From NCBI GenBank assembly GCA_003169975.1, contig PNAA01000051.1, positions 1-39,931 of the forward strand: a stretch of 39,931 bases of DNA, written 5' to 3'. The notes under the pieces are model-generated. The model saw only the letters and a list, made by a program, of their open reading frames with translations. It was not told the DNA's origin and searched no databases. Numbering within the stretch: position 1 is the first letter of the stretch; the number at the start of each line of letters is the position of its first letter. Source of the stretch: Spartobacteria bacterium (GTDB lineage Bacteria > Verrucomicrobiota > Verrucomicrobiia > Chthoniobacterales > UBA10450). Positions 7,485-34,605 of this stretch are shown here, one piece after another. Made by a program: the position numbers and the translations under genes.

Positions 7485-7715
7485 CGAGCGATCGAACCCG
7501 GCATTTGCTGTCCTCCGCCCTCGATTTTCTCGGGTGGCGCGTGGAATTATTCGGACCGAACGTTGCGCCGGCCGCGGCACCATCCAGTGGCAAAAGACGT
7601 AGCATCGTCCTCCCCTATGCTCGTGACAAGACTTCGCTGGTTTCCAAGTTGACAGCTCGCTACGTCAGTCTTGCCAAGTCGCGGAGCCATTGCGCGAAAT
7701 GGAGGCCGCAAACCG
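7485..7715. other. Gap between tpsB and the integrase remnant
   Basis: About 230 bases. I see no credible gene, terminator or promoter. Short frames here are shadows. Confidence 0.3.
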
Positions 7716-8120
7716 CTAGGTTGCAAAATCTGGCAAGGAGTCGGCGGCCTTCTGCATCGCCTCAACTCCGACGTGGGTGTAGACGTCGCTCATCTGCTTT
7801 GAGTCGTGCCCAACCAGCTCCATGACGACGGCCGCCGGTATGCCGGCTTCCTTCATCATCGTCACCGCAGTGTGTCGAAGACAATGAAAGGTCAGCTCGG
7901 CTGGGCCACCAGTACGCGTCTGCCTGCCTGAGCTCATCGCTTTACGGTGTGCCTTTTTCCTGCGCAGGCCCGCGTAGGCGAGAGGGTCTGCGAATCGATT
8001 CGAGAGATGTCCGGTTTTCCCTTCTTGCTCCGTCACGATCTTGTAGGCTCGCGTATGCAGGGGCGCGGTTGGGTCATCGGACGCAGGAAGTGCTTCGAGG
8101 TGCCGCCGCCCCTGTGACAA
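7716..8120 (-). pseudogene. Truncated tyrosine recombinase (phage-type integrase), C-terminal half only
   Basis: The 134-residue open frame carries only the second half of a tyrosine recombinase catalytic domain. It has HCLRHTA (the H-x-x-R box), then VMELVGHDSKQMSDVYTHV with the GH motif and the nucleophilic Tyr. The segment LPASDDPTAPLH fits the linker seen in integrases of planctomycete and verrucomicrobial elements. The core-binding domain and the first catalytic Arg are absent, and no intact integrase frame continues upstream. Full-length relatives are about 300-400 residues, so this is a remnant. It lies on the 3' side of a tRNA-Gln gene, as expected for an element that integrated into the tRNA 3' end. 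Confidence 0.75.
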
Positions 8121-8586: not shown

Positions 8587-9908
8587 TCAGCCGGCCGCCA
8601 CGGCGATCTCGGCCGACTCCGGCGATGACGTGGTTTTCGCGTCCTGTTCGGCCTTTTCCTTGGAGGCCATCAACCTGCGCACGGCGATTCGGGCTGGGTT
8701 GGTCGCTCCCATTTCGCCGTAGATTCGACCGGACAAGAGGTCGAGGGACGAGACGCGGTCCCTCCAGGTAAGGATTCTTTGGAAAGCGAGCGGGAAATCC
8801 CAAAGCACGCCGATGACATCCTCGACGACATCATTTCCCTCGTCGCAGTGGCGTTCAAAATCGGCGAACGGATTCCCATCGGTCCGGATTTCGCCCGAGA
8901 GCAATTTTGCTATCCTATCGGCCGCAAATTCGCCTTCCTGGATGCCGAAGTAGATCCCGTAGGCGAAGATCGGGTCGATGAAGCGGTGGGCATCGCCGAT
9001 GCAGACGAAACCTTTGCCGGTGTAGTTGTGGACACGATAGGAAAAATTTGGGATCGCATGAATGGGCTCCTGCGGCGTGAGATCTGGGAGCCGTTCGGAA
9101 AGGACGGGCGTCATGTGCCGGCATTCGTGGAGCATCATTTGCTCCCTCGACATCCCCGCTTTCTTGAAATGCTCGGTCCGAAAAACGACCCCGACGCTGG
9201 TGAGTTCATCGCTCACCGGAATGAACCAGGCCCAGTAATGTTTCGCCTGGTAATAGAGCAGGGTGTTCCCAGGCTGTTGATGAAGCTCAGGACCGTTGTC
9301 GCGCACGGTGTTGGCGAACTGGGTGAAGAGGGCGATCTGCTTGTCGGAGTTGCCCGGGACCTTCCGGCCGGTAACCCGATGATTGGCCAGGAAGGTGGCT
9401 CAGCCGGAGGCATCAATCAGCACCTCGGAATACACGTTTTCCGTCGCTCCTTCGGGTGTGCGAATCTTCAGACCGATCACGGCGTCGTCCTTGACGATCG
9501 GGGCGAGGGCCGTGGCCTTGATCCAGATGGCACCGCGTTCCACGGCGGCTTCGAACAAGATCTTATCGAAGCTGCTCCGCATGAACATTCCAAGTGAAAT
9601 TGGGGACCTGCTCGCCCTTTTCGTTGCGCCTCACGAGTCCCAACCCAGAAGTCGTTCTTTCCATCCGGGCCGTAGAAGATGGCGCCGTGTTTCATTGGGT
9701 AGCGCTGGGCCTCGATGGCGGGTCCGAGCCCGAGATCCTTCAGGGCGAGTGCCGTGGCTCCCGTCAGGGACTCGCCGACGTGGTAGCGAGGATGATCATC
9801 CCGTTCGACAATTACCGGCGTGATGCCGTGCCGGAGGAGATACATCGCGGTAGCGGCGCCAGCCGGCCCGCCCCCGAGATTAATAACGGGATGTTTCTTG
9901 TGCGCCAT
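8587..9908 (-). pseudogene. Flavin-dependent halogenase-like FAD oxidoreductase, broken by two frameshifts and a stop
   Basis: From ATG 9908 the N-terminus reads INLGGGPAGAATAMYLL, an FAD-binding G-x-G-x-x-G Rossmann motif. Further on, YWAWFIPVSDE contains W-x-W-x-I-P, the signature of flavin-dependent (tryptophan-type) halogenases, which bars ordinary monooxygenase chemistry. GDAHRFIDPIFAYGIYFG is the second FAD motif. The frame is not intact. It shifts near 9638-9645 (after KNDFWVG, resuming LVRRNEKGEQVPNFTWNV) and again near 9585 (resuming MRSSFDKILFEAAVERG). A TGA at 9400-9402 follows VLIDASG, with recognisable sequence on the other side. Reassembled length is about 440 residues, close to the family. 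Substrate unknown. Either a decayed gene or, less likely with three lesions, sequence error. Confidence 0.75.
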
Positions 9909-10045
9909 GATACGAAGCCGTCTGAATTTCCAGAACCAGTTGTAATGATAATGCAATTCTTTTGCCAGTTTCGTCAACAGACATCGTCAGCCTCGCGCAC
10001 TTTTTCGAGGCGAAAAGGGAACGCGGGGCGTTCCAATCGGTCGAG

Positions 10046-18435: not shown

Positions 18436-19050
18436 TTAAAAATTCTCCGCCAATATCTCCTCGATATAAAAAGGCGGAAACTTTGAGCTCAGTTCGGCAA
18501 AAAGGTGACCATCGGCCTCATATTCGTAGCGATACCAAAAGCCGATTGATTCCCAGGCCTTTCTGGAGGCGACAACTTGCAAACAGTCGATGTGGCGGAG
18601 ACGCACGGGGTTCCCCGTCAAAACGCGCTCGGCGTTCTTATGATGAATGATCGAGAAGACGACCATGTCTTTTCTTACATTGTCCTTCTGCAGAAACTCA
18701 TTCACTTTTTCCAGGCAGGTGGAGTAAAGGAGATTATCGATATTGAAATGGAGAAAATATTCCCCATCGGCGACTCTCGATCCATAATGTCTCGAGGTGT
18801 TTCCCCAATCATCGCAAATCTCCTTGATGTAGATCGTCTTAACCTTCTCCAAGCTGCTCAGGTCAAACTCTTCTTCGTAAGGTTGTTGCTTCAGACCGTT
18901 ATGAACAAAAATGACCTCAAAGTCCCGGAAGGTTTGAGACAAGAGACTTTCTACCCCCCATTTCGCTGATGCTCTGGGAGTATGGCGGTCGCAGTCGACG
19001 ACGATGATCGAAAATTTGGGCTTCAAGGGTCTTCCAAAACTAGGTGCCAA
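18436..19050 (-). CDS. Small GT2-type (GT-A fold) glycosyltransferase-like protein
   Basis: 204 residues, the last gene of the minus-strand glycan operon. It begins with TTG at 19050, overlapping the preceding gene by 11 nt; no ATG lies before the first strand. The GT-A fold is suggested by PKFSIIVVDCDRH, SLLSQTFRDFEVIFVHNG, and FLHFNIDNLLYSTCLEKVNEF, where NIDN takes the position of the usual D-x-D. VASRKAWESIGFWYRYEYEADGHLFAEL is the acceptor-side helix. The nucleotide-binding motif is not canonical, so activity is inferred. Donor and acceptor unknown. Confidence 0.65.
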   Translation of the reverse strand: MAPSFGRPLKPKFSIIVVDCDRHTPRASAKWGVESLLSQTFRDFEVIFVHNGLKQQPYEEEFDLSSLEKVKTIYIKEICDDWGNTSRHYGSRVADGEYFLHFNIDNLLYSTCLEKVNEFLQKDNVRKDMVVFSIIHHKNAERVLTGNPVRLRHIDCLQVVASRKAWESIGFWYRYEYEADGHLFAELSSKFPPFYIEEILAENF

Positions 19051-20002
19051 CCATCTTTTCTTCGCTCATCTCAAAGCGAGTCTTTTCCTCGGTAACCCTC
19101 CAAAGGTCGATTGTGGCTTTGTACCAGGAAGATTCGTCCATACTTGGTTGCCAAGCCGTGCGGCATAGCTCTACGAGAATTGGAACCCGCCGATCAAGTT
19201 CTTCCGATTGCCCGGCTTCGGCTCGCGACGCAAAGGGATCGCTTTGCTCCAGGATGAAGCCATCGAGCCCAGGGCCATTGCGTGGCTGCAAGTCGACGCA
19301 GAACTTCCCAACTGGCGCCGTTGTGTCGACCATGATTTCGCACGGTGGCAAGGTCGGGCCTTCGAAAAGGGCGGTCCATCTAAAAAGTTCCTCAGCTGAG
19401 GGACCAAAACTTCGGGAAAAGATAACATCGCAGTATCCAATTTTCGCGAGTAACGCGATGAGTTGAATGCCGTAGAATCGGATCGCACCACCACCGGAAG
19501 CGGTAAAGCGCTTCCAATTGCGCAAGTCAAAAGTATGGTAATGGGCAGGAAAGCTCCACTCGATCGAAAGCCTCGCTTTCTCTCTGGCTCTCGGGCATGC
19601 ATCCAACAATTGTCGTCCCCAGGCTGTGTAGGCAAAGGTATAACCTACGCGAATGACTTTGCGAGAGCGATCCAGTTCGCAGTCTAACGTTGCGGCCGCT
19701 TCGGGAGAACTGGCCAGCGGTTTTTCAAGAAGCAGATATTTGAGGTTAGAAAGTGTCAAGCATTCAGAGGCCCACTCAGCTTGATCCGATGGCCGCAGAG
19801 CGATCACGACCCCATCCGCAGAACGCAATGCTGCGGCCTCGTCCTCCGCCCATTGCACGCGATCGGCGAAGGGCGAAAGTTCCGGTCGCTCGCTCAAGCG
19901 AGAGCGATATTTTTCGGGTAGGACGACGTTTTGGCCGCAACCTCCTGTCAGAGCCGGCAGGTATCCGTAGAGACCGAACCCGGAGCCGAGAATCGCAATC
20001 AT
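19040..20002 (-). CDS. Gfo/Idh/MocA family oxidoreductase
   Basis: 320 residues from ATG 20002, overlapping the upstream methyltransferase stop as ATGA. The N-terminal Rossmann motif is ILGSGFGLYGYLPAL. The family EKP motif is present in LLLEKPLASSPE (about residues 89-100), followed by VGYTFAYTAWGRQLL. Members of this family reduce or oxidise sugar carbons with NAD(P). Placed between a sugar C-methyltransferase and a glycosyltransferase, it probably reduces a keto group of the nucleotide sugar made by this operon. The substrate is inferred, not shown. Confidence 0.8.
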   Translation of the reverse strand: MIAILGSGFGLYGYLPALTGGCGQNVVLPEKYRSRLSERPELSPFADRVQWAEDEAAALRSADGVVIALRPSDQAEWASECLTLSNLKYLLLEKPLASSPEAAATLDCELDRSRKVIRVGYTFAYTAWGRQLLDACPRAREKARLSIEWSFPAHYHTFDLRNWKRFTASGGGAIRFYGIQLIALLAKIGYCDVIFSRSFGPSAEELFRWTALFEGPTLPPCEIMVDTTAPVGKFCVDLQPRNGPGLDGFILEQSDPFASRAEAGQSEELDRRVPILVELCRTAWQPSMDESSWYKATIDLWRVTEEKTRFEMSEEKMVGT

Positions 20003-21297
20003 TCGTATCGTCCGGAAGTGAATTTGTCCGCAGTCAAAATATCCACGATTGGTCCCCTGTAGCCATGTTCCGCCATGTAGCTGCGAATCTCGTTTGGAAT
20101 GTGCCAGGCCAGATTCAAAATCGGTCGCGTTTGTTGGGGCGGTGCAAAAAGTTCCTCGTCCGAAAGAATCGGCACGCGCGTGCCGGGGACATAGTTTCCG
20201 ATCTTTAATGAGCCGGGTTTTTCATAAACCGCCGAAAGGGAGTTTTCATCCAATCCAAGCAGTTTCATCAAAATGGCGGCGCGCGCGGGAAAGGCCTTGG
20301 CCGGAAGTCTCCCAAAGGTACGGACCTGCTCCTCGATGAAACGGGTCGTCGCTTCGCGCCAGCGTTCCACACCATGCCGCAGTTGGGTAAACTTCGCCGG
20401 CAACTGCTCTTCGCGAAGACGTGAATCATCACGCCAGCTCTTGTCTGCGCCTGTCCTTCCGGTATTGCCCAGGAACACGCGAATGTTGCCGCCGTAGCGG
20501 GCAGGAAATTCGACGTCCAATAGCTGAACGCCTAAAGCGTCCGCGATGTGGAAAAAAGACGTGCAACTATAGGTGCGACAATGTTCGTGGTAAAAAGTGT
20601 CAAACTGGTAGCGATCGAGAACCGCTCCCAGGTAATGATTCTCGACGACGATGACGGTCTGGTCACCTGTCATACGCTTAACAGAAGCGATCACACCGCC
20701 GAGATTGTCGATATGCGCAAAAACATTGGTAAATGTTATGAAATCCGGCTGGCCATGCGCCGCCACAATTTTGTCGGCGAGCGCAGTAGAAAGGTAGTCG
20801 TTGAATGTAGGATGCCCTTTTTGTTCAGCATCGCAGTAGGCATCTGTAGGTTCCACTCCAAGGGTAACGGCCCCTTTAGCTCGAAAAACATCGAGGAGGG
20901 AGCCGTCATTGCATCCAATGTCGATGACCTTTTTGCCGGAAAGCCCACCAAAGCGTAACTCGCACGAGTCGACTAAGGCGGCCATGCCCGCGAGAACATC
21001 AACGGTGAAGCGCGCACGATAATGGTAGGAGGCCGGAAATAACTCGCGCTTGGGAACCTGGAAGCGTTGATGGGCGGTGTAGCAGCGGTCGCAAAGCAAT
21101 ATTTCGATCGGATATTCACGGCAGATGCGCATGTCGCCGACGGGCACAAGGTCATCGCACAGCGGATGCAGGCCCAGGTTGAAGACCGAAATAAGATCTT
21201 CGTTTTTGCAAACTTCGCAGCGATGGATCTCGTGAAAAGTGGTCCGGTTGGAGTTTTCCTTCAGAGAAGGTAACTCACTTGCAGAAGTTTTTCTCAC
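19999..21297 (-). CDS. SAM-dependent sugar C-methyltransferase (NovU/TylC-III type)
   Basis: 432 residues from GTG 21297, which overlaps the ugd stop by 4 nt. The order is that of sugar C-methyltransferases. A zinc-binding N-terminus has CEVCKNEDLISVFNLGLHPLC and CDRCYTAHQ. The SAM domain has VIDIGCNDGSLLDVFRAKG near residue 122, then FTNVFAHIDNLGG and YHEHCRTYSC. A C-terminal domain carries RYGGNIRVFLG and IPNEIRSYM. Characterised relatives methylate C3 or C5 of dTDP- or CDP-4-keto sugars to make branched deoxysugars. Together with the cytidylyltransferase upstream this suggests a branched CDP-sugar; the exact sugar is not readable. Confidence 0.85.
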   Translation of the reverse strand: MRKTSASELPSLKENSNRTTFHEIHRCEVCKNEDLISVFNLGLHPLCDDLVPVGDMRICREYPIEILLCDRCYTAHQRFQVPKRELFPASYHYRARFTVDVLAGMAALVDSCELRFGGLSGKKVIDIGCNDGSLLDVFRAKGAVTLGVEPTDAYCDAEQKGHPTFNDYLSTALADKIVAAHGQPDFITFTNVFAHIDNLGGVIASVKRMTGDQTVIVVENHYLGAVLDRYQFDTFYHEHCRTYSCTSFFHIADALGVQLLDVEFPARYGGNIRVFLGNTGRTGADKSWRDDSRLREEQLPAKFTQLRHGVERWREATTRFIEEQVRTFGRLPAKAFPARAAILMKLLGLDENSLSAVYEKPGSLKIGNYVPGTRVPILSDEELFAPPQQTRPILNLAWHIPNEIRSYMAEHGYRGPIVDILTADKFTSGRYE

Positions 21298-22646
21298 TTC
21301 GTCACGCCAAGGCGCCGCCCGATTGATAGATATTTGCCCGTGGAAAAAGTGGACGGTTGGAACATATGACGAGCATCAAATAAGACCTTGCCTGTCAGGT
21401 TTAGCTGCGTCAGTCGGCCGTATTCCGACCAGGAAGTGGCGACGATGACCACGTTGGCCGAACCGACGTAGTCAGTCCATTGAGTAACGAAAGTGATAGA
21501 CTTCGCCGTCGCCCCGAGCGCGAGTCTGAAATTATCGGCTGCCACCGGATCGTGAGCAAAGACGCGAGCATTTTTTTCCACAAGGCATCGGGCGATTTTG
21601 AGAGAAGCCGATTCGCGCACGTCGTCAGTACCTGGTTTGAAGGCCAGGCCGAGGAGCAAAACCGTTTTGTCCGCCAGGGTGGTGACGTCGGTTTCAATCA
21701 GATTCACCACCTGGAAGGGTTGCAAGTCGTTTACACTCAGGACGGCATTGACCATGTGCATTGGCAGGCCGTTTTGCATGCCTTGTGATCGCAGTGCCTT
21801 GAGATCCTTTGGGAAACAGCTGCCGCCAAAGCCACAGCCAGGCACCAGATAGGAGAGAATCGGTGGGGAGACTCTGCGGTTTTCGATGATGGGATTCCAG
21901 CGTTTGTCCGTCTGAATACCCTCGACAACGTCCATCACATCGATACCTCCCAACACGGTGGCCAAATTGGCAAGTTCGTTCATGGTCGAAATTTGCGTCG
22001 CCAGCAAAACGTTGTTGGCATACTTGATGAACTCAGCAGAGCGCGTGTTCACTCGGATCTTGTCTACATTCCAGGGTGCGTAAAGCTCTTCGAGCAGTTG
22101 GAGCGTCCGATCGTCTTCGTAGCCAAGAACAATGCGATCAGGCTCCATGAAGTCAGCGATGGCGTCGCCCTCCCGCAAAAACTCCGGGTTCATACCGAGA
22201 CCGAAGCTGGGAATATCCCTGCCCGCGATCTGCGCAATTTGCGATCGCACCACCGTATCGGTTGTTCCAGGGATAACGGTGCTTTTCAGCACGACTGACA
22301 GGTAGCGGTCGTGATGACTCAGATATAAGCCAATGCAGCGCGATACTTCGGAAACGAAACGGAGGTCGATGATCCCATTGTCCGACGGGGTGCCGACCGC
22401 GATGAAGACAAGATCAGACTGATCAAGCGTGGTCTCCAAGTTTGTGCTCGCTCGCAGCCGTCCTGATTTAAGAACGGATCCGAGCAGTTCTTCCAAACCG
22501 GGTTCGTAAATATGCGGTTTGCCCTTATTTAGTTGCTCCACCAAACCGAAGCTAAGATCCACGCAGGTGACATCGTGTCCCTTAGCTGCCAGACATACGG
22601 CAGAGACGAGGCCGACATAGCCAGCTCCAACGATGGTCACCTTCAT
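21294..22646 (-). CDS. ugd: UDP-glucose 6-dehydrogenase
   Basis: 450 residues from ATG 22646, overlapping the upstream gene by ATGA. It oxidises UDP-glucose twice to UDP-glucuronate with NAD+. The NAD site is IVGAGYVGLVSAVCLA, the substrate-domain signature is NPEFLREGDAI, the conserved Lys is in EFIKYANNVLLA, and the catalytic Cys is in GCGFGGSCFPKDL (about residue 270). The C-terminal domain has LGLAFKPGTDDVRESASL. All active-site residues are present at normal spacing. The product would feed the UXS-like enzyme encoded just upstream. Confidence 0.95.
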   Translation of the reverse strand: MKVTIVGAGYVGLVSAVCLAAKGHDVTCVDLSFGLVEQLNKGKPHIYEPGLEELLGSVLKSGRLRASTNLETTLDQSDLVFIAVGTPSDNGIIDLRFVSEVSRCIGLYLSHHDRYLSVVLKSTVIPGTTDTVVRSQIAQIAGRDIPSFGLGMNPEFLREGDAIADFMEPDRIVLGYEDDRTLQLLEELYAPWNVDKIRVNTRSAEFIKYANNVLLATQISTMNELANLATVLGGIDVMDVVEGIQTDKRWNPIIENRRVSPPILSYLVPGCGFGGSCFPKDLKALRSQGMQNGLPMHMVNAVLSVNDLQPFQVVNLIETDVTTLADKTVLLLGLAFKPGTDDVRESASLKIARCLVEKNARVFAHDPVAADNFRLALGATAKSITFVTQWTDYVGSANVVIVATSWSEYGRLTQLNLTGKVLFDARHMFQPSTFSTGKYLSIGRRLGVTK

Positions 22647-23734
22647 ATGCTCGTCTGCGCGGAACCGAGAAACTGGAGATGGCGCCGCACACCGTGTTCG
22701 ACGTCAATTTGCGGATCGTATCCGAGTTCCCGGCGCGCTTTGCGAATATCAGGACACCTTCGGTTTGGGTTGTGCGCCAGATATTCTGGGTCACGGCTCG
22801 TTTCGTAGTGAACTTTTCCAGCGTATCCGCGCGCCTCCGCTCCGGCGACGCGGTAAAGTTCCGCCAGTTCACGAACGGAAAGCTCCGGCATGTCTGCGCC
22901 AATATTAAAATAATTGTATTTTCCGTGTAAAAGGCAGAGGAGATAACCAACAACTGCGTCCGAGACATAACAGTAGGTGCGTGTTGGCGATCCGTCCGAA
23001 AAAAGCGTGATATCGCGCCCGGACACGACAGCCTCCGCCAAATCAGCCGGCAGGCGCCGGTCATCGGGCCTCATTCCGGGGCCGTAGTTGTTAAAGGGCC
23101 GCGCGATGATGACAGGCATGTCGTAGGTCTGGGCGAACACGTAGGACAACGTTTCTCCAAAACGCTTAGACTCGTCGTAACAAGCGCGCGGACCTAGGCA
23201 GGCGACGTTGCCGCGATACTCTTCTGGGGTCGGAATAAACCGAGGATCGGGCTCCCCGTAGACCTCGCTCGATGAAAAAAAGAGAAAACCCCGCAATTGT
23301 TTGGAATCGTGGTAAAAATCAAGCAGACGACGCAGACCCCAGATGTTGGCGTCGATCGTTGCGAGGGGATAGCGGCGATAGAACGTGGGCGAGGCAATCG
23401 AGGCTCCGTGAATGACGTAACGGACGTCCCTGGCTCCGTCTACTTCCTCGATTCGATCCCGTGAAACGTCGAAAGCGCGCAGAGACAAAAGATTGGGATA
23501 GGTCTCCGTAAGCTGGAGGAGCCACGAAGGCTTTCCGAACAGAAAGTTATCAAGTCCGATCACCTTGCGAATGCCTAATTGCTCCGCGTAATGGAGGAAG
23601 TATTGGATTAGGTAAAAGCCAAGAAAGCCAGCACATCCGGTCACAAGTAAAATACCGCCGTCCCAAGCAGGACGGTTGCCCACTGCCGCATGAATAGACC
23701 GTAGGTCGTCGCGAACGATTGGATTAAGGTTCAC
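22643..23734 (-). CDS. Extended SDR nucleotide-sugar enzyme, UDP-glucuronate decarboxylase-like
   Basis: 363 residues from GTG 23734. The NAD motif is VTGCAGFLGFYL (residues about 31-42). The catalytic residues are SSSEVYGEPD (about 152) and the YxxxK of ACYDESKRFGE (about 185). GPRACYDE-KR, together with RPFNNYGPGMRPDDRR, is the pattern of UDP-xylose synthase (UXS). VSDAVVGYLLCL and NIGADMPELSVRELAEL complete the fold. Adjacent ugd supports UDP-glucuronate as substrate. An alternative is a 4,6-dehydratase or epimerase acting on the CDP-sugar from the cytidylyltransferase, since no separate dehydratase is present. Confidence 0.8.
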   Translation of the reverse strand: MNLNPIVRDDLRSIHAAVGNRPAWDGGILLVTGCAGFLGFYLIQYFLHYAEQLGIRKVIGLDNFLFGKPSWLLQLTETYPNLLSLRAFDVSRDRIEEVDGARDVRYVIHGASIASPTFYRRYPLATIDANIWGLRRLLDFYHDSKQLRGFLFFSSSEVYGEPDPRFIPTPEEYRGNVACLGPRACYDESKRFGETLSYVFAQTYDMPVIIARPFNNYGPGMRPDDRRLPADLAEAVVSGRDITLFSDGSPTRTYCYVSDAVVGYLLCLLHGKYNYFNIGADMPELSVRELAELYRVAGAEARGYAGKVHYETSRDPEYLAHNPNRRCPDIRKARRELGYDPQIDVEHGVRRHLQFLGSAQTSI

Positions 23735-23793
23735 AAGGACGCTCTTGTAGAATGATGCAGGTGCTTTCGTCTAATGGCAGTGAACGTTTGCAA

Positions 23794-24561
23794 TCACCAG
23801 ACTTTCCAGGGCGCCTTGTCAGCCTGCCACAATGCCTCAAGGTGTTGTTTGTCGCGGAGCGTGTCCATCGATTGCCAAAATCCCTTGTGAAGAAAGGCGT
23901 TCATTTGTCCTTCCCGCGCGAGCCGGTCCATTGGTTCCCATTCCCAGGGCGTTTCATCGCCCGCAATGTAATTGATTACCTTGGGCGAAAGCACGAAAAA
24001 GCCGCCATTGATCCAGGAGCCTTTGCCCGTGGGTTTTTCCGAAAAACTACGAACCTGGGAACCAGCGATGTTGAGGACGCCGAAGCGCTCCCGTGGCTGG
24101 ATCGCGGTAACCGTGGCAAGTTTCCCTTCTCTTTTGTGGAAATCCACCAGCGCGCCGATGTCCACGTTGGACAAGCCATCTCCGTAGGTCAGGCAAAAGT
24201 CCTTATTACCAAGGTAAGACTTCACTCTCTTAAGACGTCCACCGGTTTGAGTGGCGAAGCCTGTATCCACAAGGGTCACGCGCCAGGGCTCGGCAAACTT
24301 TTGATGGACTTCCATCCGATTGTTGGAAAGATCGAAGGTCACGTCAGAGAAGTGCAGGAAGTAGTTGGCAAAATACTCTTTGATGACATAGCCCTTGTAG
24401 CCGCAGCAGATGACAAAGTCAGTGACGCCATGAGCGGAATAGAATTTCATGATATGCCAGAGAATAGGCTTGCCTCCGATCTCGAGCATGGGCTTTGGCC
24501 GGACCGACGTTTCTTCGCTCAAACGTGTGCCGATTCCCCCGGCGAGGATGACTGCTTTCAT
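23794..24561 (-). CDS. rfbF: Glucose-1-phosphate cytidylyltransferase
   Basis: 255 residues, full length, ATG overlapping the preceding stop as ATGA. It makes CDP-glucose from CTP and glucose-1-phosphate. The nucleotidyltransferase loop is [20 protein letters not shown], followed by [11 protein letters not shown]. The family-specific [28 protein letters not shown] and [12 protein letters not shown], plus a terminal [12 protein letters not shown], distinguish RfbF from dTDP- and UDP-glucose enzymes. CDP-glucose normally goes to CDP-glucose 4,6-dehydratase (RfbG); no typical rfbG or rfbH follows here. The 59-bp gap to the next gene is the largest in this operon and holds nothing I recognise. 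Confidence 0.93.
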
Positions 24562-26294
24562 GAGGAAATGGTAGGCGCTGCGATCCGTGGCGGGAAGGCG
24601 ATCTTGTAGCCAGAGCCGGTTAGAGACAGATTGGGATTGTAATAGGGGTCAGCAAGCAGTTGCGCGCCCCATTTGTCCCGGAAACGGGCAGCTTCCCGAA
24701 GAAATTGGTCTTCCTCTTGCGGGGTGCGCTGGCGTCCGCGGGAGGCCGATTCATGGTGAATTAAATTTGCGTAAGGAGTCCAAATGATGCGCAGGCCCCG
24801 GTGGCGCAAGCGCAAACAAAAATCGATGTCGTTAAAACTCACGGGAAAGTTTTTTTTGTCAAAGCCGCCCGTCTCTTGAAAGACATCTTTACGCACGAGC
24901 AGACAAGCGCCGGTAACAGCGGAACAGTCCTGGGGCAAGAGGAGGCGATCGAAATATCCGGGAGATCCCCGCGGCGCGCCCGCAAAAGCATGCCCGGCGA
25001 TTCCGCCGAGACCGAGCACTACGCCACCATGTTGGAGAGTGCGATTCTGGTACCAAAGCCGCGCTCCGACAGCGCCGACATCGGGCTGCTGAACGTAACC
25101 GACCATTTCCTGCAGCCAACCTGAGTCTTCCACTTCGGTATCATTATTGAGCAAGGCCAGAACATCTCCACGTGCGGCGGCCGCGCCACGGTTAACTAAT
25201 CGACTGAAATTGAAGGGACCGCGCTCATCAAGGACCTGCGTCCTCTGTTCGGACCTGAGGCGAGTCAGGAATTCTTGCGCTGGTCTTTCCGTCGAACCGT
25301 TGTCGACCACAATCACTTCGATTTGCTCGTAATCGGTGCGCTGGCGGATACCGTCGAGGCACCGTTTCAGCAAATTCACACGATCGCGCATCGGAATGAT
25401 AATCGAAACGAGAGGTGCCGGAGACGGCAACTCGTAAATCACACGGTGCCGATCGGGATTTTCGCGAGATGGTTCGACGCGCGCGGCGCTGCCGCGACGC
25501 TCGAGATGTTGGGCGAGGGCGCGTCGCGCGCCTTCGGTCGCCTTAGGCTTGGCATCTATTGCGGCCGCGACACTTCCCGGGATTGCCCGCCAGTGATAAA
25601 GGATTCGCGGAATGTGCCGCATTTGATCCGGGCGCAGTCTTTCAATGAAGCGCAAGGCGAGATCGTAATCCTGCGAGCCATCAAAGCCCTCCTGAAACCC
25701 TCCGAGTTCTCGCAGCATTTCGGTATGATAGACGCCGAGATGATTGATATAGTTTTGTCCGAGAAACAGCTCCGGATTCCAGTCAGGCTTAAAGAAAGGG
25801 TCTGCTCGCACGCCCTGTGAGTTGATCTTGTCTTCGTCGGAATAAATGAGCCGGGCATCCGGATGGGCCGCAATCTCCAGCGCAACCCAGGCGAGAGCGT
25901 CTTCCGCGAGGGTGTCATCCTGATCGACGAGCGCGGACCATGAGCCGGTGGCGAGCGCGAGGGCCGAGTTGGTAGCGGCCGCGATGTAGCCATTCCTCTC
26001 GCGCAGGGTGAGGTGGATCCGCGGGTCGCCTGCCGCCAGAGACTCGAGAAAAGGTCGCGTTTCGGCGTCGGTCGAAGCGTCATCGGCGATACACAGCTCC
26101 CAATTCTCGTAGATCTGCGCTTTGATGGAATCGATCGCGGAACGGAGCAATTTCAGATCGGGATTGAAGACGGGCAGGAGAATCGAGATGCGCGGCTGCT
26201 CGAGCAGCATGCGTAACTTCCGTCGAAGCGCGATGCGGTCGGCAGGCGACGGCGTGTCGTAGCGCGCGATCCATTCTGCAAACGTCGCCTCCAT
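24558..26294 (-). CDS. Tandem GT2 glycosyltransferase (two GT-A domains)
   Basis: 578 residues. After a short helix ([12 protein letters not shown]), domain one has [37 protein letters not shown] (D-x-D) and [14 protein letters not shown]. Domain two, from about residue 300, has [57 protein letters not shown] and [13 protein letters not shown], resembling rhamnosyl-type WbbL-like transferases. Two catalytic sites in one chain usually add alternating residues to a repeat unit. The first domain is clearly related to the first GT2 domain of the large fusion upstream, so the pair probably arose by duplication. The stop overlaps rfbF. Cytoplasmic, no membrane segment. Confidence 0.88.
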
Positions 26295-26297
26295 CTC

Positions 26298-29200
26298 TTA
26301 GACCCCGGCGGGCTCGGCGACCAACTCACGGACGAGGCCGATGAAATTTTCTCCAAAACGGTCCATCTCAAATTGCTCCTCGAACGTCGCGCGTGCCTGC
26401 TGGCCAAGGAGACGCGCTTCGCTCGGATTCTTGATCAAGCGCTCGATGGCCGCGGCCAATTCCGCGGGCTCTTCCGGCTTCACGAGCAGCCCATTTTTTC
26501 CGTGGCGGATGTATTCCGGCAGGCCGCCCACGGCAGTACTTAAAATCGCCTTCCCGAGGCTCATCGCTTCCAGAACTGTGACGGGCATGGCTTCATCACG
26601 CGAGGCGCAGACGAGCACATCGGCATCTGCGAGGAGAGCGAGCGCTTTGGCATGGTCAGTTTCTCCGGAGATTTGCAGATTCTCCACGTCCCGTCCAAGC
26701 GCGTAAACTTCGACCGCAAAGGAGGGATCCATCACCCGGCCCGCGATTTGGAATTGGGCGCGCTTTTGCAGCGCCTTAGGCAGGAGCCGCAGTGCCTCCG
26801 TGTAAACGTCCTGCCCTTTGCGCGGTTCGATGCTGCCCAAAAGCAGGAACCGCAGTTCACCGTCCTGTCGGGCAATCGCATGCTCGCCGCTCGGGAGAAG
26901 ATCGGGAATGCCGTAGGGAATGCAGCGCGGCGTGTGCTCGGTAAATGGCCGATACACCGCCGCGGTGGCTGCGGAAGGCGTAAAGATCACATCCGCCTCC
27001 CGAACCGAGAGGCGCAGGTTCACGTCCTCCCGGAGATAATGTTCGCCGACCAGCGTCTCGTGCATCCACCAGAGCGCCGGCACTCCCTGCTTTTTTGCCG
27101 CGCGCACCGCCGGCCATCCGCGGATGGTGTTCGCGAGCAGAGCGTCGTAAGGGCGCAAGAAATCTTGAAACGATTCGTGTCCCTTCATGATCAGTGGATC
27201 GATAATCAGCGGGATGCCTTCGGTTTGGTAGGCGGCCCTTAGCGGTCCATCCTCTGGCGCCATCACCGTGACGAAAAAGCCGTGCGCCAGGCACCAGCGC
27301 GCCAGGTGGAGGAGCAGAATCGGCGCGCCGCTCCGGCTGAGATCGTGGGAGACGAAGAGAAGATCGAGTTGCGACTTTGCCTCCGCGCGGTTGCGGGCAA
27401 ACATCCGGATCGGTGTCGGCGAATCGGCGTAGAGCCAATCGCGCATGTTATCGGTGAAAAAAGGATCGTGCGTCGCGTCGCCCCCCCAGCGTTTCAACAG
27501 ATAGATCACAGACTTGTCGGGCTTGGCGGGAGCTTCCGCCTTTTCCTCCTCCGCGCCTAACGAAGCATGGCCGACATGTCGCAAAGTGGCGAAGGGGGTG
27601 TAAACACATCGGAGCCCGGCCGCGCGCAGCGAAAAGCAAAGATCGATGTCGGAGTGGAGGATCGGCGTTTCGACGGCGTTAAATTCGCCCACTCGCCGGA
27701 AGTCGTCGGTGCGCACGGCCAGGCAGGCGCCTGAGAGCGCAGAGACGTCGCGGAACGATTGCGCGAAGTTTGTGTGGTCGCTGGAGGCGGCCGGCCATTG
27801 ATGGCAGGCGGTCCCGACCAAACCACGCACGCCGGTGACCAGGCCCGCGTGCTGAATATTTCCGGTTGTATAAAGAAGTTTCGGCGCCACCGCGCCGATC
27901 TCCGGATTCTCCAGCGGCTCGATCAGATTTTGGATCCAATCTGACTGCCCACTCTCGACGTCGTCGTTAAAAAATATCAGGCGCGCTCCAGTCGCCACTT
28001 CGGCGCCGCGATTGCACTTTTCGGAGAAATTAAACGGCTTGTCGTAGCGCACGAGCCGCGCCAGGGGCGCCGCGACCGATTCGAGTGAATCGGCCAGCCG
28101 GCTATTTGTCACGAGAATGATCTCGTAGTCGGGGTAGTTCGTCATTTGCGGCAGCTGCTCCAGGCAGGCGCGCGCCCGTTCCTCCGAATCCGTTGGGATG
28201 ACGAGCGAGACGCGCGGCGTGCCGGCGAGCTTGAGGCGGGCGCGGTTGGCGGTCGGAAGCTCAATGATTTCTGCGTCGAGACCCCGGCGTTGCATCGCGG
28301 CGCCCAAGGCCGCGAGGTTCGTCGCGCGGGCCTGCGGTTTGCCTCCCGCGGAGCCGGAGCCGGGATGCTCGCGCCAGTGATAGAGCACCCGCGGGATATG
28401 ACAGATGGCGCGCGCCTTTTCCGTCGCGCGGAGGGCAAAGTCATAGTCCTGCGAGAGATCGAACTCCTTTCGGAACGAACCCACCTGATCCACCAAACCT
28501 CGCCGATAAGCCGTCAGATGGCCGAGATACATGCAGGAAAGAAGCAACTCGGGGCTCCATTCCGGTTTGAAGAAAGGTGAATGCCGCTGCTCGTTCACGC
28601 CGAGGCGATCCTCGTCGCTGTAAAACACATCGCTCTCGGGGAAGGCCATGATCGTGCGCGCGACCTCGTGGAGCGCGAACGGTGCCAGCAGATCATCGTG
28701 GTCGACGCACGCGAAAAAATCCCCGGTGGCCAATTCGAGGGCGCGATTCGTGTTTTCGGCGATTCCAAGATTGGCCGGAAGGCGGGTGATATTGATTCGC
28801 GGATCGGAAGCGGCGCGCTGTTGCTCCAGCACCGCCAGAGTCCCGGCGTCGGTCGACCCGCCGTCGACCATGCACAGCTGCCAGTTCGCGTAGGTTTGCG
28901 CCCGCACCGACGCGATCATTTCCTCGAGGAATTTCGCCGGCGTATTATGCACGGGCAGGAGCAGGCTGATCGTCGGCGCGTTCGGCCATTGCGTGTTCTC
29001 TCGCCGCTGCGCCTCCAGCCCCGCCTTGTCCGGCTCATATTGCGCGATCCACGCCGCATAGCGTTCATGGGCGTTCGCGCTTCCCCATGTGTCCTGTTTC
29101 CGGGCTTTGTTTCGCGAATCGGCCTTGGCCACAGCCGGCGGCGTCGCTTTCCGGCCCAGGAGATTCCCCGGGACGCGCTTGATTTCGCGCAGGATTCTTT

Positions 29201-30356
29201 CGGAGATCGGGCGCTGTTTTTTGGCCGCCTTCTCGTTAGGCAGTTGAAAGCATCTTCCCTTTTTCCGGCACGCCTCTCTCGCAATCTTCAAGATCTGTTT
29301 CTGCTCCGTCGCCTGAAGCTTGTATTTGTTTCGCTCGGTTTCGCAGTGCCGTAGTTGCTCGATCTGCGTGTTTCGCTCGGTTTCGCAGCGCTGTAGTTGC
29401 TCGAGCTGCGTGTCCATCACGAACTGCGCTTTCGCGCGATCGCGCTGCAAGGATTCGCGATCACGCTGCCAGGCTTCGACTCGCGGTTGGAGATCTCCGA
29501 TCATTCGCGCCTGCTCATCCATGACTCTTTGTGCTTCCCTGCGATCGGCCAGAATGGAATCGATCCAGACCTGACGCGCCCTGAGCGAGGCAACTTCCCG
29601 CGTCGCCTTCGTCGCAAGCTTTTGCGCTTCGGTCCGTTCCGCCGCGAGCAGGTAAAGGTAGCCGAGCGATGACGCCCGCTCTTGCGGGAAAAGCCAGTCG
29701 TATTGCGGGCCGATCGGTTTGGTCTTTGGGCCGACCGTCGCCACGCCCAAACCAAGGCCGGCGGAAAACCTGACCGCATGGCGACTGGCTGTCCATTTGT
29801 CCCACACCGTCCCGGGTGCGTCCGAACGTTGGAGAGAAATTCCGTGAAACAGAACCAGCCCGTCCCGTGACAAAACCGGCTCATAGCTCGACAAAAGCCG
29901 CTCGAGTTCAGCCCCCGAATCGATCTCGTCGATAAACAAAATATCGACCTTATCGACCCCGCGAGCGGTCAGCCTCGACGCGAAGTTCGTCCAAGGCTCC
30001 GAAACCAGCTCGCTCGTTTCTCCGTACAACTCGTTTCCGGATTCAAGGCCGCGTACCCAGGCGTCTTCGTCGTCCTGGTTCTCTTCCACGTCTCGCCGCA
30101 GAGCGAGGCAACGGGTGGTCAGGCGCGCTTCCCTGGCTGCCTGACAGAACGCGAAATGGATTTGCCCTTCGCCGAACCCAAGAGTAACGACCGAACTCGG
30201 CTTCGTGAGTGAAACAAGATCATAAGTCAGCGGCAAATAAGACGCGGTCGGTCCTCCCGTGTACCACTCTGGATGAAATTCATGCAGGCTGGGTAGCTTC
30301 TCAAACATAAAGGGTGCGCGGAAGTGCTCTGGCTCCGAACCGAGGCGACGGCGCAT
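26298..30356 (-). CDS. 1352-residue fusion: methyltransferase-like domain, coiled coil, two GT2 domains, GT4 domain
   Basis: First gene of the operon. Starts at ATG 30356 or ATG 30308 (MFEKLPSLHEFHPEW). Residues about 50-215 form a class I methyltransferase-like fold (SVVTLGFGEGQIHFAFCQ, DILFIDEIDSG, GLVLFHGI) whose motifs are eroded. Residues about 235-365 are a Gln/Glu/Arg-rich coiled coil with a duplicated 14-residue unit. A GT2 domain follows from about 455 (PTISLLLPVHNTP, FACVDHDDLLAPF, LSQDYDFAL), and a second from about 712 (PRVSLVIPTDS, FFNDDVESGQSDW, HSDIDLCFSLRAAG). From about 1000 a GT4/GT-B domain has LLFVSHDLSRSGAP, LLLGSIEPRKGQDVY and the E-x7-E-type AMPVTVLEAMSLGKA, then GGLPEYI. 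The protein should build several linkages of one glycan. No membrane segments. Confidence 0.88.
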   Translation of the reverse strand: MRRRLGSEPEHFRAPFMFEKLPSLHEFHPEWYTGGPTASYLPLTYDLVSLTKPSSVVTLGFGEGQIHFAFCQAAREARLTTRCLALRRDVEENQDDEDAWVRGLESGNELYGETSELVSEPWTNFASRLTARGVDKVDILFIDEIDSGAELERLLSSYEPVLSRDGLVLFHGISLQRSDAPGTVWDKWTASRHAVRFSAGLGLGVATVGPKTKPIGPQYDWLFPQERASSLGYLYLLAAERTEAQKLATKATREVASLRARQVWIDSILADRREAQRVMDEQARMIGDLQPRVEAWQRDRESLQRDRAKAQFVMDTQLEQLQRCETERNTQIEQLRHCETERNKYKLQATEQKQILKIAREACRKKGRCFQLPNEKAAKKQRPISERILREIKRVPGNLLGRKATPPAVAKADSRNKARKQDTWGSANAHERYAAWIAQYEPDKAGLEAQRRENTQWPNAPTISLLLPVHNTPAKFLEEMIASVRAQTYANWQLCMVDGGSTDAGTLAVLEQQRAASDPRINITRLPANLGIAENTNRALELATGDFFACVDHDDLLAPFALHEVARTIMAFPESDVFYSDEDRLGVNEQRHSPFFKPEWSPELLLSCMYLGHLTAYRRGLVDQVGSFRKEFDLSQDYDFALRATEKARAICHIPRVLYHWREHPGSGSAGGKPQARATNLAALGAAMQRRGLDAEIIELPTANRARLKLAGTPRVSLVIPTDSEERARACLEQLPQMTNYPDYEIILVTNSRLADSLESVAAPLARLVRYDKPFNFSEKCNRGAEVATGARLIFFNDDVESGQSDWIQNLIEPLENPEIGAVAPKLLYTTGNIQHAGLVTGVRGLVGTACHQWPAASSDHTNFAQSFRDVSALSGACLAVRTDDFRRVGEFNAVETPILHSDIDLCFSLRAAGLRCVYTPFATLRHVGHASLGAEEEKAEAPAKPDKSVIYLLKRWGGDATHDPFFTDNMRDWLYADSPTPIRMFARNRAEAKSQLDLLFVSHDLSRSGAPILLLHLARWCLAHGFFVTVMAPEDGPLRAAYQTEGIPLIIDPLIMKGHESFQDFLRPYDALLANTIRGWPAVRAAKKQGVPALWWMHETLVGEHYLREDVNLRLSVREADVIFTPSAATAAVYRPFTEHTPRCIPYGIPDLLPSGEHAIARQDGELRFLLLGSIEPRKGQDVYTEALRLLPKALQKRAQFQIAGRVMDPSFAVEVYALGRDVENLQISGETDHAKALALLADADVLVCASRDEAMPVTVLEAMSLGKAILSTAVGGLPEYIRHGKNGLLVKPEEPAELAAAIERLIKNPSEARLLGQQARATFEEQFEMDRFGENFIGLVRELVAEPAGV
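27555..27563 (-). repeat. TCGTTAGGC word, inside the large glycosyltransferase fusion
   Basis: Exact minus-strand copy, read in the gene as Ser-Leu-Gly (HASLGAEE). Confidence 0.8.
29233..29241 (+). repeat. TCGTTAGGC word, inside the large fusion after the coiled coil
   Basis: Exact plus-strand copy; the gene reads its complement as Pro-Asn-Glu (QLPNEK). Confidence 0.8.
29329..29412 (-). repeat. Two tandem 42-bp repeats inside the coiled coil
   Basis: Units 29329-29370 and 29371-29412 differ at only a few bases. Each encodes 14 residues (four turns), reading CETERNTQIEQLRH and its neighbour, so copy-number change would keep both frame and heptad register. Confidence 0.75.
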
Positions 30357-32652: not shown

Positions 32653-34605
32653 ATGAAACACCCGATACTAAGGCGCATACCGGGAGCGCGGCAATGGATC
32701 GAAAAGATCGAACGACTTGAGAGTGAGCGAAACCGGCTGGCTCGAAGAGTGGAAAAGCTGGAAGCGCGTTTGGAGTCTTTGCCGGAGAAGCCACAACAGC
32801 CGGGACGCTCTGAGTACAAAGCCGTCTGGACGGCACTATCGGAAACCGCGAGTTCGGCCCAGTGGCACATTGGGGGCGTGAATGAAGAGGCGTGGTTCCA
32901 AGCTACCGGATTGGCAACAAAGGAAACGCTGACGAGCACGGTTGGCATCCATCAGACAGATACCTTCGTTGAGATAGGGTGTGGAGTAGGCCGGGTCGGC
33001 AAGCAGCTCGCGCCGCTCTGCCAGAAGTGGGTCGGCTGTGATGTTTCGCCGCACATGCTTAGCCTGGCCGCCCAGCGGCTTAAGGGATTCCCGAATGTGG
33101 AGCTGCATGAAATCAGTGGGTTTGACCTTCAGCCACTGGCGAACAGATCGGCGGACGTCGTCTATTCGACTGTCGTCTTTATGCATCTGGAGGAATGGGA
33201 CCGATATAACTATGTCCTGGAAGCCTGTCGCGTGCTCCGGCCGGGCGGCAGAATCTATATCGACAATGTCAATCTCTGTTCGGAGGAGGGCTGGAAGGTG
33301 TTTGAAAGTCATCGGCAGATTCCGCCGGACCAAAGGCCGCCGCACATGACCAAGCATTCGACGGTGGACGAGCTCAAGACCTACCTGCGGCGGGCGGGAT
33401 TCAGGGATATTCGCGCGCGCGAGGTCGACCACTTCGTCCAGGTATGGGGGACAAAAGGAGCCGCTTTGGAAGAACTGTCTTCCCGCCGCTTCGAGGCTTT
33501 GCGTTATGCGCTTGGCGCCTGGACGGAACACATCTTCTGCGCCTATGACCTGGTGGCGCAGTTGCGGCCGCAGCTCGTCGTCGAGCTTGGGACCGATCGT
33601 GGCGAGAGTTACTTTGCCTTCTGCCAATCGGCCTTGGAAAACCGGACCGGCACCCGTTGCTTTGCGATCGACCACTGGCAGGGAGATAGCCATGCCGGGA
33701 GTTATGATGAAACGACCTTTGCCGATGTGACCGCCCACAATCGACTGCATTACGAGGGCTTTTCGACCTTACTTCGCACGACCTTTGATGAGGCGCTTCA
33801 GCGCTTCGGGGCAGAGAGCATTGATTTGCTGCATATCGATGGACATCACACCGAGGAAGCGGTGCGGCATGACGTTGAGGCGTGGCTGCTGAAGCTGCGC
33901 TCCGGCGGCATTCTGCTCATGCACGATGTGACAGTGAGGGGGCGTAACTTTGGGGTTTGGAAAGTATGGGAGGAGCTGACGGCTCGCGGTCGATCGTTCA
34001 CTTTCGCCCAGCCGCCCGGCCTCGGAATTTGGGAGAAGCCGCCGATGCGAGAGCAACCCCCTTTGCTCGAGACGCTTTTTGGACCGGCGAATGAAGAGAG
34101 GGCAGCCGTGCTGCAATCCTACCGGCAGTGCAACGCCGAACTGCAGGCCAGGATCGCAACTCAATGGCGCGATGGAACCATTCGCTCGGCGCCGATGGCG
34201 CGCGAAACCGTCATTCAGTTCTTTTGGAGCAGTGATGGCAGCTACGCGGAGGAAAATTCGACCGATGTCCGCATTGGGCACGAAGAGTGGAAGGATGTGG
34301 CCGTCAAACTGCCGACGGAGACGCCGATCAGAGGATTGCGCATCGACTTTTACAGTCCCCTAACGATGATCGAGATCGCCGTGATCGAGGTCCACGCGGA
34401 GGTGGGGGCGCCGCTTTATCGGGCGGAAAACGCGGCGACTTTCGATTCCATTGCATTGTTAGGGGATTGTCTGCGCCGCTCGCTCGATCCCTTTTGCATC
34501 GAAGTCACGGGCGTCGATCCGCAGCTTCATCTCCCGCCTTTCCCACAGCCGGGGAGAGGACTGGAGGTGCGAATGCGGTTGCGCGTACGAGCGACCGCGA
34601 GCTGA
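32653..34605 (+). CDS. Double methyltransferase with N-terminal coiled coil and C-terminal beta domain
   Basis: 650 residues. Residues about 15-45 form a short coiled coil (IEKIERLESERNRLARRVEK). The first class I methyltransferase, from about residue 100, has TFVEIGCGVGRVGKQLAP, VGCDVSPHML and VLRPGGRIYIDNV. The second, from about 305, has VVELGTDRGESYFAFCQ, CFAIDHWQGD, LLHIDGHHTEEAV and GGILLMHDVTVRG (Methyltransf_24 type). Its glycine loop and catalytic His/Asp residues are all present. The last 150 residues are beta-rich with no known motif. The second domain is the intact relative of the eroded N-terminal domain of the large fusion. It may methylate or cap the glycan; the acceptor is unknown. 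Confidence 0.8.
   Translation: MKHPILRRIPGARQWIEKIERLESERNRLARRVEKLEARLESLPEKPQQPGRSEYKAVWTALSETASSAQWHIGGVNEEAWFQATGLATKETLTSTVGIHQTDTFVEIGCGVGRVGKQLAPLCQKWVGCDVSPHMLSLAAQRLKGFPNVELHEISGFDLQPLANRSADVVYSTVVFMHLEEWDRYNYVLEACRVLRPGGRIYIDNVNLCSEEGWKVFESHRQIPPDQRPPHMTKHSTVDELKTYLRRAGFRDIRAREVDHFVQVWGTKGAALEELSSRRFEALRYALGAWTEHIFCAYDLVAQLRPQLVVELGTDRGESYFAFCQSALENRTGTRCFAIDHWQGDSHAGSYDETTFADVTAHNRLHYEGFSTLLRTTFDEALQRFGAESIDLLHIDGHHTEEAVRHDVEAWLLKLRSGGILLMHDVTVRGRNFGVWKVWEELTARGRSFTFAQPPGLGIWEKPPMREQPPLLETLFGPANEERAAVLQSYRQCNAELQARIATQWRDGTIRSAPMARETVIQFFWSSDGSYAEENSTDVRIGHEEWKDVAVKLPTETPIRGLRIDFYSPLTMIEIAVIEVHAEVGAPLYRAENAATFDSIALLGDCLRRSLDPFCIEVTGVDPQLHLPPFPQPGRGLEVRMRLRVRATAS

Follow-up and report, generated by a model that had tools for sequence, protein, structure and literature searches.

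A 39,931-nucleotide stretch of the genome of a Spartobacteria bacterium, a soil member of the Verrucomicrobia (contig PNAA01000051.1 of assembly GCA_003169975.1; hereafter the window) encodes P0001, a fused glycan-assembly protein of 1352 amino acids. We consider it somewhat probable that P0001 is a coil-scaffolded, multi-module glycan synthase, which works with the product of the adjacent gene, P0002, and whose N-terminal head does not methylate. By Pfam and AlphaFold2, a COMT/Methyltransf_24-like head is followed by a 137-residue helix, two glycosyltransferase (GT) family 2 modules and a GT4 module. This confirmed the order and the fusion put forward by the original prediction, which was made from the DNA alone. 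The features on which the argument depends are:

26298..30356, minus strand: fused protein P0001, 1352 amino acids, single open reading frame
29712..30308, minus strand: methyltransferase-like head, residues 17–215, COMT/Methyltransf_24 fold
29274..29684, minus strand: predicted continuous helix/coiled coil, residues 225–361 (137 residues), by AlphaFold2 and heptads
29247..29270, minus strand: CRKKGRCF, conserved two-cysteine motif ending the coil, residues 363–370, found in the orthologs too
29157..29216, minus strand: basic amphipathic stretch, residues 381–400, possible membrane contact judged from its sequence
28362..28979, minus strand: first GT2 module (GT2a), residues 460–665, with VDGGS, DHDD and SQDYD kept
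27546..28229, minus strand: second GT2 module (GT2b), residues 710–937, with NDD and SDxDL kept
26310..27374, minus strand: GT4 module, residues 995–1349, GT-B fold, with E-x7-E kept
24558..26294, minus strand: partner protein P0002, GT2-GT2, conserved immediately downstream of the fused gene

Pfam recognized in the full chain two GT2 stretches (Glycos_transf_2) and Glycos_transf_1 (GT4, PF00534, 1.8e-30), and no kinase. The full-chain structure prediction gave a folded head, a long helix as the middle region and then GT folds. An overlooked kinase is ruled out, as there is no space for it between head and helix; the absence of a visible kinase had been stated originally and held. Most orthologs open at residue 17 (MFEKLPSL), and because many begin there, the true start of P0001 may be at 30308.

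Within the family, 23 of 83 genomes, from 5 of 14 genera, had a match at E ≤ 1e-150, some of these not full length but broken by contig ends. Full-length orthologs with the same module order were found in several genera of the family. An assembly artefact is ruled out, since independent genomes carry the fused gene without internal stops. Among the matches listed for 21 genomes of the order's other families, none was full length, and the best covered the GT parts only.

The methyltransferase-like head

The AlphaFold2 model of the head had a COMT-type fold (Z ~17 over 167–177 residues), with a Z of 17.4 and a root-mean-square deviation of 2.2 over 167 residues against rat COMT (2zth). Its Methyltransf_24 score was 26.0 bits against a cut-off of 26.3 in the full chain, and 28.8 when the domain was scanned alone. 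A profile of the head found nothing meaningful among PDB sequences up to E 10, and no similarity to WbdD.

The catalytic motifs are lost. In the window the changed positions are T58 (Glu in relatives), R87 (Asp), E144 and D146 (Gly and His) and G172 (Asp). The replaced motifs presumably correspond to COMT residues E64, E90, D141 and D169, which by analogy would bind S-adenosylmethionine and metal. Counting the sequences in which each position is present (19–21), the motif-I Glu was retained in 0/20 orthologs, the beta-2 Asp in 0/19, and the Gly and the His of DGxH each in 0/21. The HD Asp was likewise kept in 0/21, with Gly there every time, and the DGxH Asp itself was retained in 19/21. In contrast, all 11 related Methyltransf_24 domains, taken from stand-alone neighbouring genes and from other fused or coil-bearing proteins (L095–L098), kept all four motifs: VELGxxxGES, the Asp after strand 2, DGxH and HD. 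Because the four motifs are lost in all orthologs and kept by the intact relatives, the head is predicted to be non-methylating.

The replacement residues have become conserved in turn, with R88, D143, H171-G172 and R177 (numbered +11) invariant in 13 of 13 sequences. By simple pairwise estimates, with the synonymous rate (dS) of the head saturated in two of four pairs, the head is under purifying selection (ratio of the non-synonymous rate, dN, to dS ~0.26 for the pair L012–L039), its dN being ~2–4 times that of the GT2 modules. Purifying selection and the re-conserved positions rule out a head decayed to junk. Methyl transfer was probably lost and the site re-used. As far as its sequence can tell, the head appears re-tooled; it does not look like the working capping domain first proposed, the motif positions being replaced in every ortholog.

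The coiled coil and the glycosyltransferase modules

The helix of residues 225–361 was unbroken in AlphaFold2, at modest confidence (block pLDDT, the predicted local distance difference test, 53–88). The heptad periodicity of residues 239–362 exceeded that of shuffled sequences (moment p 0.0005, peak 103 degrees). In the orthologs the distance from RQVW to DRAKAQ was 31, 38, 45, 52, 59 or 136 residues, all congruent modulo 7, with 43 and 104 as exceptions. A tree of the GT part needed 10 coil-length changes, of which eight were whole heptads and two shifted the phase (P ~6e-6, a value that treats parsimony changes as independent, on a tree in which the partial sequence L047 is less surely placed). 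With other moduli on the same tree (3–6, 8, 9 and 11), 8–10 of the 10 changes altered the phase, none coming close to 7. The shuffles and the modulo-7 pattern rule out a chance coil, and the coiled coil of roughly 130 residues originally noticed was thus borne out. Heptad-quantised lengths are a prediction of selection for an unbroken coiled coil; they are not by themselves proof of a ruler.

Of 18 orthologs measurable at both ends, 17 shared one distance from DRAKAQ to CRKKGRCF, which in the window itself is a heptad longer; a length constraint thus acts on part of the coil. The cysteines of CRKKGRCF, just past the coil, are candidates for a disulfide, metal or membrane contact. The coil in L047 carries an 84-bp tandem repeat (97% matches), and that of the window two tandem DNA repeats:

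29327..29413, minus strand: 42-bp unit (14 codons, two heptads), 2.1 copies, 93% matches
29435..29478, minus strand: 21-bp unit (7 codons, one heptad), 2.1 copies

C-terminal to the coil lie the putative polymerase modules, GT2-GT2-GT4 by Pfam and fold, whose polymerase activity is predicted. GT2a (PF00535) has a GT-A fold with both the nucleotide-site Asp and the DxD motif present. In GT2b the nucleotide-site VDNGS has become VTNS in the window, and the Asp is gone in all orthologs (variants VTHT, VANT and VTRS). GT2b is as conserved as GT2a, and more probably has a changed donor site than lost its function altogether. The C-terminal module aligned with the GT4 enzyme HepE (Z 37.1, 338 residues).

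Partner gene, locus and relatives

Almost all relatives with a readable flank have a gene like that of P0002 adjoining the fused one. The partner is GT2-GT2 in genera g1 and g4, and GT4-GT2-GT2, with an extra front GT4, in g7. Since almost all relatives examined encode this second multi-GT protein directly after the fused one, P0001 is unlikely to act by itself, contrary to what had been proposed. The conserved site of the fused gene is beside pyruvate kinase and a sigma factor. Split domains of the same kinds sit in this same locus, and the survey of fused and split homologues did not place them in unrelated pathways. Other genes in the window include:

32653..34605, plus strand: P0010, upstream of the fused gene, with a coil, Methyltransf_11, Methyltransf_24 (motifs intact) and a beta-rich C-terminal part
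18436..24561, minus strand: accessory genes running the same way as the fused gene, their ends mostly overlapping

The Methyltransf_24 part of P0010 is homologous to the head of P0001. P0010 is one gene in the window and two genes in G003 and G004 (L053 and L065), a further fusion or split at the locus. Related architectures were seen elsewhere. In G028 a 566-residue protein (L098:6112-7809, minus strand) has an intact Methyltransf_24 and then a long predicted coil, and adjoins an 890-residue protein matching GT2b and GT4; it is a candidate split WbdD-like terminator. A 2431-residue frame in G015 (L095:3184-10476, plus strand) is a larger relative of the fused protein, with a start that looks by eye like a sulfotransferase, an intact Methyltransf_24 and GT2-GT2-GT4. 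A 1909-residue frame in G034 (L096:6337-12063, plus strand) has an intact Methyltransf_24, a coil and many DPHPLFDTSWYLxxNxDV-type repeats.

The accessory run encodes a nucleotidyltransferase, a NAD-dependent sugar dehydratase/epimerase, a nucleotide-sugar dehydrogenase, a sugar C-methyltransferase-like protein, a Gfo/Idh-like oxidoreductase and a small GT2-like protein. The nucleotidyltransferase together with a Methyltransf_13-23-14 protein suggests a C-methylated branched sugar. The nucleotide-sugar genes were matched at the locus only in G003 of the same genus and partly in G004, and nothing at this site matched them in the other genera examined; they therefore resemble an accessory cassette.

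No Wzm/Wzt genes were found at the locus or elsewhere in the window. The genome of the window gave one Wzt_C match, on another contig than the fused gene. Among 13 genomes carrying the fused gene, Wzt_C was found in three (two above the cut-off), never on the fused-gene contig; it was undetected in the other 10, where a divergent carbohydrate-binding module (CBM) could escape detection. PF01943-type flippases are common to most genomes, and one at the locus is ruled out, as none was on the fused-gene contig in the genomes checked; no search was made for Wzy or for flippases of other families. In genus g7 a protein with 8–10 predicted membrane segments adjoins the fused gene or its partner (L060:3629-5215, plus strand; L063, L056 and L067), and the L060 copy had no Pfam match.

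Farther off in the window (8587-9977, minus strand), Trp_halogenase matched in two frames (8587-9306 and 9477-9977), so that the gene may be broken. A phage-integrase fragment (7716-8120, minus strand) stands beside a ShlB-type two-partner-secretion outer-membrane protein (5583-7583).

Mechanism, alternatives and known systems

In the mechanism that we favour, GT2a, GT2b and GT4, jointly with P0002, would extend a glycan, probably a lipid-linked one, by adding sugars to it. The 137-residue helix would form an oligomeric coiled coil, followed by the basic helix, which would lie close to the membrane. Some 200 Å away, the head would have kept the COMT-type fold and lost methyl transfer, to serve as a structural, docking or ligand-binding module. 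The coil would be a spacer whose length drifts by whole heptads between species. Three points weigh against this mechanism. The altered site could still methylate by another route or transfer another group, the count of working transferases is uncertain because GT2b lost the usual nucleotide-site Asp, and the AlphaFold models of P0001 are middling (mean pLDDT 68–69).

It is possible, though we doubt it, that the coil merely oligomerises the enzyme, that its length is neutral, and that what P0001 and its partner produce is a short, fixed oligosaccharide destined for protein, lipid or Wzy rather than a polymer of measured length. The five to six transferase modules that the two proteins have between them would suffice for this, and the wide range of coil lengths (RQVW to DRAKAQ 31 to 136), reached by tandem duplication, is what a neutral spacer would show. 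The membrane-segment protein of unknown family beside the genes in several g7 genomes also fits, but the constant DRAKAQ-to-CRKKGRCF distance does not, as it places part of the coil under constraint. More doubtful is a ruler-like synthase with a pseudo-methyltransferase tip, whose own conserved pocket would sense chain length or recruit a capper in trans, the length being tuned by in-phase heptad duplication. A re-tooled head that docks an intact P0010-type methyltransferase, which would then methylate the chains reaching the coil tip, seems unlikely; the pair would form a WbdD/WsaE arrangement. The head and the stand-alone Methyltransf_24 proteins are homologous (~25–34% identity) and close neighbours in three genera, and dimers are common among COMT-type folds. 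Of the sequences with a solved structure, 6g7d is the closest relative of the intact domain; we take it to be the mycobacterial sugar 1-O-methyltransferase MeT1, and this, too, speaks for such a capper. MeT1 is part of methylmannose polysaccharide synthesis (PMC9883506). However, in five of six g4 genomes and in the g8 genome carrying the fused gene no intact P0010-type copy was found, which weakens a strict dependence on a neighbouring methyltransferase, and the locus lacks the carbohydrate-binding domain of Wzt by which a cap would be read.

The original prediction had P0001 build and size-limit a glycan by itself: the C-terminal transferases would make chains for the coil to measure and the head to cap, as in WbdD of O9a/O8, WsaE and O7 ORF6. 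We regard this as very unlikely. The module order is that of Klebsiella O7 ORF6 and O12 WbbB (PMC11231755), the predicted helix is near 200 Å, as is the WbdD coil (PMC5082667), and the lack of a kinase is no objection to the comparison, because WbdD of Escherichia coli O8 has none (PMC3482155). The motif-I acid, the beta-2 acid, DGxH and HD are nevertheless lost in every ortholog, and the head profile found no WbdD in the PDB. Wzt bears a carbohydrate-binding domain in every terminated system described in PMC11231755, whereas here Wzm/Wzt are missing from the locus and Wzt_C went undetected in 10 of 13 carriers. Of the WbdD analogy, the geometry stands, with head and transferases at opposite ends of a ~200 Å coil; the capping head does not.

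An active enzyme at the coil tip is fundamental to the Klebsiella and E. coli systems. A natural family with this layout whose head no longer seems to perform that chemistry separates measuring from capping, and could show whether glycan length can be set by a coil in the absence of a cap. Its range of natural coil lengths (31, 38, 45, 52, 59 and 136 residues) is a ready series to test a ruler.

Fusions of this kind were known before: WbbB of O12 and ORF6 of O7 combine terminator, coil and polymerase (PMC11231755), and WsaE unites a methyltransferase with two GTs (PMC2943079); we compared these three with P0001 by their published descriptions. Like P0001, ORF6 of Klebsiella pneumoniae O7 is a single chain with an N-terminal methyltransferase domain, a coiled coil and C-terminal GT2-GT2, with one more transferase encoded separately. 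ORF6 differs by its active methyltransferase, its kinase, its CBM and its position with wzm/wzt (PMC11231755), whereas P0001 has lost the head motifs, lacks a kinase, has an extra GT4 and has no wzm/wzt at its locus. WbbB of K. pneumoniae O12 also holds a head in the terminator position, a coil and a polymerase in one polypeptide, but its terminator is a 3-deoxy-D-manno-oct-2-ulosonic acid (Kdo) transferase, and the families GT99, GT102 and GT103 were established from the three GT modules of WbbB (PMC11231755), unlike the methyltransferase-like head and GT2/GT2/GT4 modules of P0001. In WsaE of Geobacillus stearothermophilus an N-terminal methyltransferase precedes two GT domains, and the enzyme works alongside WsaF, a transferase encoded separately; a protein with a WsaF_C domain (Pfam), P0009, is encoded in the window too. 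WsaE differs in methylating rhamnose in vitro whatever the chain length, and in having an ABC (ATP-binding cassette) transporter in its cluster; no coil is described for it (PMC2943079, PMC3898925). P0001 resembles WbdD of O9a in carrying a methyltransferase-type head on a ~200 Å coil, and the O8 form in lacking a kinase, but WbdD has no polymerase modules, an active methyltransferase and, in the O9a form, a kinase (PMC3482155, PMC5082667). With the COMT-type and Methyltransf_24 (PF13578) O-methyltransferases the head shares the fold and a weak family score, and differs in the replaced motif-I Glu, beta-2 acid, DGxH and HD. P0001 thus has the layout of the known terminator–coil–polymerase fusions, and is new in having no linked ABC transporter, an extra GT4 and a head that appears re-tooled.

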